64,000 bases of DNA, taken from NCBI RefSeq assembly GCF_937951745.1, contig NZ_CALFBQ010000010.1, forward strand, positions 1 to 64,000, written 5' to 3'. The position numbers were made by a program, and so were the translations under genes. The stretch is from an uncultured Chloroflexus sp. (GTDB taxonomy: Bacteria; Chloroflexota; Chloroflexia; Chloroflexales; Chloroflexaceae). Positions 39,492-42,404 of this stretch are shown here, one piece after another. Within the stretch, counting starts at the first letter, position 1. The number at the start of each line of letters is the position of its first letter. The notes beneath the pieces were generated by a model. The model made no database searches. It was not told the origin of the DNA and saw nothing but the letters and a program-made list of their open reading frames with translations.

Positions 39492-40106
39492 ATGGCAAAG
39501 GCTGGAGTGCTTTATATTGGTGCCGATAATGGTCTGTACGTCTTCAGCGATCCGGGTGGCACGGGCCGTTGGCGCTTGTTACCTGATGTATCATTAGCCG
39601 GTGAACAAGTGATTGCATTGGTTGCCGCCGATTCGCTGAGTTTGGTGGTGGCAACGAAGCAGGCCTTTTTGCGCAGTGATGATGGTGGCCGGCAGTGGTA
39701 TGAGGCCGATGCCGAGGATCGGGCGTTGTTTCATTTTCTCGCCAGTGATCGCTTGCCGGTAGCAACCGTGCAGGGGATGGGGGTCTGGCGTAATGCCGAT
39801 GTGGGGTTGCCAGACGTTCGTTTGCTGGCGGTGTTGTCAGGGAAACAAGAGGTGTTGCTGGCAGCGGTCGCTGATGGCACGCGCGTTATGCGTAGCGAGG
39901 ATGGCGGCAAGACGTGGCAGGAAGTGACCGGTGCATGGCAAGGTGCGCTCAGCGCATTTGCACCGAGCACCTACCATATTGATGTGGTATGGGCCGGTAC
40001 CGATACCGGCCAGATTTGGCGCAGCGACGATCGCGGGCGCACATGGCAGCAGGTGGGCAGCATCCCGTCACCGGTGCGCTGTCTCGCCGCGGTGCGGGTG
40101 GCGTGA
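39492..40106 (+). CDS. BNR/Ycf48-like beta-propeller repeat protein
   Basis: The 204-residue protein is made of beta-propeller repeats, with Asp-box/BNR motifs SDDGGRQWY, SEDGGKTWQ and SDDRGRTWQ spaced regularly, resembling sialidase and Ycf48-like repeats. It has no signal peptide and is short for a full propeller. A partner-binding or assembly role is possible but not shown. AAGGAGG lies before the ATG, and an extended -10 TGCTACAAT at 39430-39438 suggests its own promoter. It is divergent from the kinase gene. Confidence 0.75.
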   Translation: MAKAGVLYIGADNGLYVFSDPGGTGRWRLLPDVSLAGEQVIALVAADSLSLVVATKQAFLRSDDGGRQWYEADAEDRALFHFLASDRLPVATVQGMGVWRNADVGLPDVRLLAVLSGKQEVLLAAVADGTRVMRSEDGGKTWQEVTGAWQGALSAFAPSTYHIDVVWAGTDTGQIWRSDDRGRTWQQVGSIPSPVRCLAAVRVA

Positions 40107-40113
40107 GGCCGGA

Positions 40114-41739
40114 TCATCCATAAAAATCCGTATACCCTTCACGATCAAGCCGGGCTAACATCTGTTCGAGCCGGGCTGCGCTGCGCAGGAGCCTTCCCTC
40201 ACAAAGCGCATGCAGCCCGCGCAGCGCCTGTCGGAAGCGTGGGGTGTCATCGCCGCGCAAGCGTGGCAAGAGGCGCTGGAGCATCTGCATGTCTAATGCC
40301 TCGAAGGCGCTCATGCTGCTGGCTTGTTCGATGAATCGAAGCGTTTCACCCAAAGCCCGATACCCCGCTGGTTTGCCTGCCGCTGCCATGTGGGTCTGGA
40401 TCGCTGCCAGCATCTGCCAAATCTGGTCGTCGATGGAGCCTTGATATACGGCGCGGAAGCGGTTGAGATCAACGCTCCCTAGTTCGAGCAGGTTGGCCCG
40501 ATCGAGCACTTTGTCGCTGAGCAGGAAGGTGCTTTCATCGACGTTGACGGTACCGATCAGGCGCAGGTTGGCCGGCAAGCGCAATGGGTTGCGCACCACC
40601 CCGCCGCTGGCCAGCGGCGTTTCGGCCAGCGGTGTGCCGAGATCGATCAGCCCCTCGGCAGTCTCCATCGCCGAGAGGATCGGCGCCAAATAGTATTCGG
40701 GCCGGGCCAGATTCATTTCGTCGAGGCAGACGATGTAGGTCTGATCAGGGTCGGCGGCGGCCTTGAGCACGTGGCGCAGAAATGCGGTCGGCTGGTAGAG
40801 ACCGGTGAGCGTGTTGTAGTAGCCGAGCAGATCGCGGGCGCTGTGCCAGTCGGGTTGCACCGCTACCAGCAGGTAGATGGGGTTTGTTTGGCCTTCATCT
40901 GCTCCAATCAACGCATCGGCGTACAACCGGGTGAGCCACGTCTTGCCGCTGCCGCTCGGCCCGGCCAGAATCACGAGGGGCCGCGCTTGCACCGCCAGAT
41001 GGAACGCTTCCAAAATACGTTCATCAATCACCATCCCCCGTCGGCGAATCGCAGCGGCGATCTGCGCGAATGGCGGCAATCCGGTGTGATAGCGTTCTGG
41101 CGCCTCGCGCAAGGTAGGGGTTGTCGCCAGCTCGATCTCGGCCAGTTCCATCAACGCTTCATTGAGCGGCAGCAATGTGCAGAGATCATCGATCAGCCGC
41201 TCGTCGGGCGGCAGATTGTCCCAAGGATAGACGAAGCCTGCCCACAGGTATTGGGCTTGCCGTTGCGCCAGATAGTGATCGACCCAGCGCATTTCCGGCG
41301 CGGGCGGGCGGCGACTGGCAAACCGCGCCTGCCCTTCCGTGCCGATCCGGTCGATCAGCTCTTCCCACAACGGGCGCGCTTCGCGCCACAGCCGGGCTAG
41401 TTGCGGTCGCCGCACTCCCCATAGTTGCAGACCCACCGTGACCGTGCGTTCAACCCCGCTCACCGTCAGCATAACGCCGGCCCCACGCGGTGGTCGGTCG
41501 AAAGCGAACCAGTAGTCTTCGATCGGATCGCGCCGGCCCTTGCCGCGATCAATCGCGCGCCGCGCCTTAAAACTCAACTCGTACAACGGCCATTGCCGGG
41601 GCAAGAGCGTTGCCGCCCGTTCAGACGCACGGTTGGCCAACGCCAGCATTTCGGGGTGCAACCAACGTTGCACCGCTTGCCAGCGCTCGCTCACGCCGGG
41701 TTGCAGCAAAGCTTGCAGCGCGGAAGGCGAAAATGGCAT
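40114..41739 (-). CDS. Orphan McrB-like AAA+ ATPase
   Basis: The 541-residue protein has an N-terminal domain of about 230 residues that I do not recognise, then an AAA+ domain close to the McrB/AAA_5 group: Walker A GPSGSGKT (260-267), the McrB-like AVQPDWHSARDLLGYYN (about 293-309), Walker B VCLDEMNLA (337-345) and sensor region IGTVNVDEST. In restriction systems McrB is a GTPase that works with the nuclease McrC. No McrC gene is here; the partner encoded upstream with a 1-bp overlap is a 221-residue unknown protein. Confidence 0.82.
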   Translation of the reverse strand: MPFSPSALQALLQPGVSERWQAVQRWLHPEMLALANRASERAATLLPRQWPLYELSFKARRAIDRGKGRRDPIEDYWFAFDRPPRGAGVMLTVSGVERTVTVGLQLWGVRRPQLARLWREARPLWEELIDRIGTEGQARFASRRPPAPEMRWVDHYLAQRQAQYLWAGFVYPWDNLPPDERLIDDLCTLLPLNEALMELAEIELATTPTLREAPERYHTGLPPFAQIAAAIRRRGMVIDERILEAFHLAVQARPLVILAGPSGSGKTWLTRLYADALIGADEGQTNPIYLLVAVQPDWHSARDLLGYYNTLTGLYQPTAFLRHVLKAAADPDQTYIVCLDEMNLARPEYYLAPILSAMETAEGLIDLGTPLAETPLASGGVVRNPLRLPANLRLIGTVNVDESTFLLSDKVLDRANLLELGSVDLNRFRAVYQGSIDDQIWQMLAAIQTHMAAAGKPAGYRALGETLRFIEQASSMSAFEALDMQMLQRLLPRLRGDDTPRFRQALRGLHALCEGRLLRSAARLEQMLARLDREGYTDFYG

Positions 41740-42404
41740 CAGGCAGTCGGTGGTCGCAAATAAAACTGTGGATCAAGCCCCGGCTCAGGATCGCTTGGCG
41801 TTGGCGGAAGGACTGTTGCTATCTGCGGAAGTATCTCGCGCAGCTCGCCGCTCATAGCCGCAATCACCTCTTCCACCGCCTCAGCCTGCAATCGTTCCAC
41901 CGGGAAGAGCCGGGTTACCGTTAATTGCGCCAGTGTCGGCGCCTGTTCACTGCTTAAGCGGAGGACGCCGTTGATCTCGAAGTTGTCCTCGATGTCAGCA
42001 CGGCGCGCAAAGAGATCGAGGATCTTGGCGGTTGCATGCTCAAAATCCGCCGCCTGCTGTTCGTCATCGCTCAGTGGCAGGAAGTAGGTCACATCAAACG
42101 CCATTGGGCTAGCGCGCTGCATCGTGCGCAGCCGCTCGGCAACAATCTGGTTGAGCGCATCAATGATTGGTTGGCCGTGCAGTGAGGCAATGGTCAGCTC
42201 CGCCGGCCAGTGGATGCTCACCACAGCGCGCAATGGCGGTTGCGCCCATGCGCCGGTTTTATCAGCATGCGGTGGCAAACAGGTCACGTGCAGGCTGCGC
42301 CCCAACGTGTGAACGTCAAGCAGTTCTTGGGTGTGAACAATGTTGATCTGGTGTTGCTCGAGGCTTTCGATCAACAGGGCAATCAATTGCTCGTAGGTGA
42401 GCAT
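41739..42404 (-). CDS. Unknown protein paired with McrB-like ATPase
   Basis: I recognise no family. The 221-residue acidic protein has no signal peptide or transmembrane segment. Its N-terminal half alternates strands and helices, with PPLRAVVSIHWPAELTIAS and an AFDVTYFLPL strand; the C-terminus is Pro-rich. Its TGA stop overlaps the McrB-like ATG by one base, so the two are probably produced together and may act together. GAGGA precedes the ATG. Confidence 0.75.
   Translation of the reverse strand: MLTYEQLIALLIESLEQHQINIVHTQELLDVHTLGRSLHVTCLPPHADKTGAWAQPPLRAVVSIHWPAELTIASLHGQPIIDALNQIVAERLRTMQRASPMAFDVTYFLPLSDDEQQAADFEHATAKILDLFARRADIEDNFEINGVLRLSSEQAPTLAQLTVTRLFPVERLQAEAVEEVIAAMSGELREILPQIATVLPPTPSDPEPGLDPQFYLRPPTA

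Follow-up and report, generated by a model that had tools for sequence, protein, structure and literature searches.

The AAA+ ATPase gene described here, from a Chloroflexus near C. islandicus, probably encodes the motor of an McrBC-like machine, with the gene for the nuclease subunit lying far away in the genome. The gene lies in a window of 64,000 nucleotides, by which we mean the whole stretch of DNA that was analysed, beside a second gene for a protein of 221 aa. We infer that the ATPase and the nuclease act together from the adjacency of their relatives' genes, their shared presence and loss across genomes, and their matching architecture.

A previous, sequence-only reading of this DNA had described two ORFs with a one-base overlap, the first encoding an McrB-type AAA+ protein with an extra N-terminal domain of about 230 aa. 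Our analyses bear out each of these points. The products are 541 and 221 aa long and the ORFs overlap in the sequence TGATG, all the quoted motifs are present, the protein matches McrB-family models, and the extra domain is confirmed (Table 1). A domain search returned AAA_5, the best sequence match among solved structures is E. coli McrB (E 3.5e-4), and the PADLOC model PDC-M26A matches the ATPase with an E-value of 1.2e-47. The NTPase motifs, including the NxD signature, vary hardly at all among 28 orthologues from Chloroflexales. According to Bell et al. (PMC11090510), the NxD form marks one branch of the McrB GTPases, and the ATPase can be assigned by its motifs to the McrB GTPase family with this form of the signature.

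Table 1. Features of the ATPase gene and its neighbour, in window coordinates
Feature	Positions	Strand	Evidence
McrB-family AAA+ NTPase, 541 aa	40114..41739	-	McrB-family matches; single-copy orthologue in 58/61 Chloroflexales genomes
Walker A GPSGSGKT, residues 260-267	40939..40962	-	read in ATPase sequence; orthologue alignment
PDWHSARDLLGYYN segment, residues 296-309	40813..40854	-	read in ATPase sequence; orthologue alignment
Walker B VCLDEMNLA, residues 337-345	40705..40731	-	read in ATPase sequence; orthologue alignment
NxD signature N399-V-D401 within GTVNVDES (shortened McrB NxxD motif)	40537..40545	-	alignment
N-terminal domain, residues 1-235, predicted DUF1054/YktB fold; McrB DNA-binding-domain structures next	41035..41739	-	AlphaFold2 model and structure matches
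221-aa neighbour, predicted YbjN / type III secretion chaperone-like fold	41739..42404	-	ORF; structure model; conserved tail

Among close species, dN/dS is 0.07-0.08 for the ATPase gene and 0.11-0.13 for the 221-aa gene, in a comparison that leaves out the ATPase rows of genomes G003 and G004 and the 221-aa row of G003. These low ratios, together with the nearly invariant motifs, indicate that neither ORF arose by chance. The closest named holder of the ATPase is C. islandicus, at 95% identity. The genome itself has no second close ATPase of the McrB type; another of its AAA_5 proteins, of similar length (L174), was set aside because the McrB signature is absent on reading.

The N-terminal domain of the ATPase was modelled with AlphaFold2 from 26 sequences, at a pLDDT of 90.8, as a globular alpha/beta fold. 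Its best structure matches are two DUF1054/YktB proteins, 2a8e (Z 16.1 over 181 residues, rmsd 3.1) and 3mqz (Z 14.0 over 178 residues, rmsd 3.7), with the next rows at 6.6; eleven entries for the DNA-binding N-domain of E. coli McrB follow this pair, at Z 6.2-6.6. Because the DUF1054/YktB match stands well above background and extends over most of the domain, we assign the modelled domain to this fold. Sequence matches to DUF1054 (PF06335) are weak (5 of 26 members, best E 0.013), and profile comparison revealed no sequence likeness to an MrcB_N segment, so that the likeness to McrB's own DNA-binding domain, at Z of about 6.5, is one of predicted fold. At the matching position, the PDC-M26 relatives L035 and L037 carry an MrcB_N domain recognisable by sequence, whereas the Chloroflexales domain is DUF1054-like. 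The domain was not found in the phage collection. By its position and fold, it may be the part of the ATPase that reads DNA.

The sequence-only reading had further reported that McrC was absent, and had suggested that the effector could be a different one. The first claim holds for the surroundings of the ATPase, as no mcrC-type gene adjoins it at the locus, and classical McrC (PF10117) is missing from the whole genome. At the genome level it fails, since a homologue of the PF09823/PF04411 type is encoded on another contig. This is the single DUF2357/PD-(D/E)XK protein of the genome (G000 contig C46, about 4.2-5.76 kb), outside the window. A search with PF04411 across this genome and its relatives returned one gene in nearly all of them, on another contig or far off, and a profile built from the Chloroflexales nucleases raised the count to 53 of 61 genomes.

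PF04411 (PDDEXK_7) was recognised in all 31 aligned nucleases and PF09823 (DUF2357) in 27 of the 31. The glutamate of LYExWC (motif I) and the PD residues are invariant, and D-A-K-Y-R is near-invariant. These residues correspond to motifs I-III of the PD-(D/E)XK family (PMC1913061), and by sequence the active site is intact. Bell et al. counted the combination of DUF2357 and PF04411 as McrC (PMC11090510), and on these domain assignments the protein classifies as an McrC-family homologue of the PF09823/PF04411 type. It also aligns with the nuclease that adjoins the Fuchsiella ATPase over 426 columns (hhalign E 9e-18), covering the beta domain and DUF2357. The McrC partner expected of McrBC, DUF2357 joined to PD-(D/E)XK, would thus be supplied in Chloroflexales by an unlinked single-copy gene. 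A corA-like gene found upstream of the nuclease in Chloroflexus was rejected as a part of the system, as it is not conserved across the order.

The ATPase orthologue is single and full-length wherever the assembly allows, and is 50-64% identical between genera of Chloroflexales. In 301 Chloroflexota genomes, full-length orthologues are confined to this order; elsewhere the AAA half alone aligns. The gene trees of the ATPase and the nuclease keep Chloroflexales together and largely follow its families, the nuclease tree, which leaves out G026, recovering the order plus families f2, f3 and f4. Inheritance of both genes, as judged from these trees, is largely vertical. The sequence-only reading had asked about conservation of the ATPase and its 221-aa neighbour as a pair across Chloroflexota: the ATPase is conserved throughout the order Chloroflexales, but the 221-aa gene has moved or been lost in parts.

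The two putative subunits are widely separated. In McrBC systems mcrB and mcrC are neighbours, typically in one operon, an arrangement not seen in Chloroflexales: in five complete genomes (G002, G004, G006, G042, G053) the ATPase and nuclease genes lie 0.4 to 2.7 Mb apart, and the nearest pair seen, in G045, is separated by about 52 kb on one contig. No ATPase homologue (E below 0.01) was found in the stretch around the nuclease at 40 Chloroflexales loci, and the ATPase loci read in the order likewise have no nuclease gene close to the ATPase. Neither gene has fixed neighbours across the order. In some families gyrB, purB and a membrane-protein gene are repeatedly found next to the ATPase; they were considered as candidate components and dismissed as housekeeping neighbours. 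In the window, a short BNR/Sortilin-like beta-propeller gene (39492-40106) converges on the ATPase gene, and a similar gene is present there in several related genomes.

A reading with the same parts but a different role for the machine, to which we give considerable weight though short of preferring it, is that the split pair has been domesticated and acts mainly on DNA of the cell itself, perhaps to remove aberrant or modified DNA, rather than in defence against phages. The near-universal, single-copy and largely vertical occurrence of both genes across four families is in keeping with such housekeeping, as are the dispersed subunits with no fixed neighbours and the purifying selection on both genes. 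There is also a precedent in the McrB-family protein PcdA of Staphylococcus aureus, which has been recruited to cell division (PMC10602043). However, the motor motifs and the nuclease active site are intact, as they would be in a restriction enzyme, and no housekeeping gene is consistently linked. The nuclease's rate of evolution is moreover roughly three times that of the ATPase (dN/dS 0.19-0.26 against 0.07-0.08 among close species), which suits an arms race no less well. Fixation across the order leans towards a constitutive role, while the faster evolution of the nuclease leans towards defence. The more specific proposal, that the machine was split in the ancestor of Chloroflexales and became fixed as essential or near-essential genome maintenance, no longer a mobile defence, we consider possible but rather doubtful.

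Our preferred reading, a McrBC-like motor with a distant nuclease, gains further from the joint distribution of the two genes. The suggestion of a different effector is not supported: the DUF2357-PDDEXK_7 gene is present in 53 of the 58 Chloroflexales genomes with the ATPase and in none of the three without it (G014, G039, G058). The wider sample of 301 Chloroflexota genomes contains the ATPase type (E below 1e-20) in 39, PF04411 in 39, and both in 38. These counts are not independent among related genomes, and we claim no p-value for them. An mcrC gene conserved at another locus and invariably accompanying the ATPase had been named as an outcome contrary to the sequence-only reading; the pairing that we found comes very close to this, falling short in the exceptions within those counts. 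The nuclease was not detected in five genomes with the ATPase (G001, G023, G029, G030, G056); most of these are fragmented or incomplete assemblies, although the completeness of G029 and G056 is put at 95-99%. Joint loss of both genes is firm in one case, genus g21, and possible in a second, G014, which is 81% complete.

Nearly all core genes of one order co-occur. Both genes are nearly universal in Chloroflexales, so that their co-occurrence there carries little independent information, and the ATPase and the nuclease might be core genes of unrelated function that appear together through the shared ancestry of the order. We regard this as improbable, given that the two families are adjacent at every one of the 15 loci examined outside the order, that both genes are absent together from genus g21 and G014, and that the genome offers no other close ATPase of the McrB type.

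Two further arrangements were observed in passing. In family f24 (L091:794-9060; L092, L093, L095), the McrB/nuclease pair adjoins two helicases, a DpdE/DrmD-like one of the SNF2 type and a DruE-like one with DUF1998, surroundings that possibly represent a larger defence locus. In another lineage of the same class (L089:6463-10500), a McrB homologue of 1345 aa adjoins its nuclease, and its AAA domain is preceded by EVE and HARE-HTH domains.

Searches with the 221-aa protein gave no match among Pfam, NCBIfam and PADLOC models or PDB sequences. Its structure model (pLDDT 80) gave top Z-scores of 7-9, near background, with a coherent group of YbjN-like and type III secretion chaperone chains; the predicted fold is similar to theirs, but no sequence similarity was found, and the protein has its own C-terminal tail, Y-[LF]-[RK]-P-P-[TA]-A, near-invariant in Chloroflexales. 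A relationship to the N-terminal domain of the ATPase was rejected, profile comparison showing no similarity. Its family is present in 45 of 61 Chloroflexales relatives. Many Chloroflexales from two families, and a single member of another, have the gene beside the ATPase. It is unlinked from the ATPase in G012/G034 and most of family f3, and it is absent from all of family f4 and from genera g10, g15, g16 and g18, where the ATPase is kept and the nuclease mostly kept. We found no ATPase residues specific to genomes carrying the 221-aa gene, nor was the gene found in the plasmid collection. Outside Chloroflexales, profile searches picked up the family in 43 of the sampled Chloroflexota genomes, where it has no constant neighbours. 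Across Chloroflexota, relatives of the protein (L175-L194; e.g. L175:7455-8201, L187:7435-8232) share a conserved Cys/His cluster, C-x-FFH...CPH, which by its residues looks metal-binding; the cluster is missing in Chloroflexus and its own family, and the PPTA tail was seen in Chloroflexales alone.

The proposal of the sequence-only reading that the ATPase and the 221-aa protein form a specific two-gene unit, with an effector unrelated to McrC, has the one-base overlap, the frequent adjacency and the conserved tail in its favour, but is very unlikely and largely refuted by the unlinked nuclease, as most of the outside genomes with the 221-aa family have neither ATPase nor nuclease, the gene is unlinked or missing in several Chloroflexales that keep both, and the McrC homologue tracks the ATPase far better. 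The 221-aa protein thus belongs to an independent, wider family and is at most an accessory factor.

Among known systems, PADLOC PDC-M26 (PDC-M26A, McrB-like, and PDC-M26B, a DUF2357-nuclease; Fuchsiella L035 and relatives L037 and L039) has the same domain order in both subunits, and the L035 nuclease matched PDC-M26B in the PADLOC scan of relatives. In PDC-M26 the two genes are adjacent, whereas in Chloroflexales they are unlinked and core to the order. E. coli McrBC likewise combines an AAA+ motor bearing an N-terminal DNA-reading domain with a nuclease composed of a DUF2357-type arm and PD-(D/E)XK (PMC7680126, PMC11090510); it differs in its NxxD signature, PF10117 nuclease and operon, where Chloroflexales have NxD, a COG1700/PF04411 nuclease and no operon. 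CoCoNuTs and other McrBC of the NxD branch share the GTPase signature with the Chloroflexales ATPase (PMC11090510). Unlike CoCoNuTs, this ATPase has no coiled-coil fusion, and no HEPN or other RNase gene lies at the locus. Membership of this group was rejected on the globular alpha/beta model of the N-terminal domain and the lack of a recurrent RNase gene at the locus; in addition, many CoCoNuT McrC homologues are inactive, whereas the Chloroflexales nuclease has an intact active site. PcdA resembles the Chloroflexales ATPase as a chromosomal McrB-family gene outside a restriction operon, but has EVE domains and acts with FtsZ (PMC10602043), while Chloroflexales genomes retain an McrC nuclease with its active-site residues.

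By analogy with McrBC, the ATPase and the nuclease would form a complex that uses GTP and cuts DNA. Six ATPase subunits may assemble into a ring through their AAA+ domains, with the DUF1054/McrB-N-like N-terminal domains reading DNA, possibly at a modified base. The nuclease, encoded elsewhere, would dock into the ring by its DUF2357 part and stimulate NTP, probably GTP, hydrolysis, and translocation or ring rotation could then trigger the PD-(D/E)XK domain to cut DNA. The McrBC-type genes may have separated before Chloroflexales diversified, and would since have been inherited largely vertically as single-copy core genes.

We found no paper describing a split McrBC-like pair in Chloroflexus in the open-access literature. 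The main census of McrBC systems was filtered on gene neighbourhoods (PMC11090510); split systems could therefore have escaped it, with their ATPases recorded as orphans. Our analysis also corrects the reading of the 221-aa gene, since its family extends far beyond McrB. An order that keeps both halves of such a machine as dispersed single-copy core genes offers a natural setting in which to test whether restriction machinery has turned to housekeeping.
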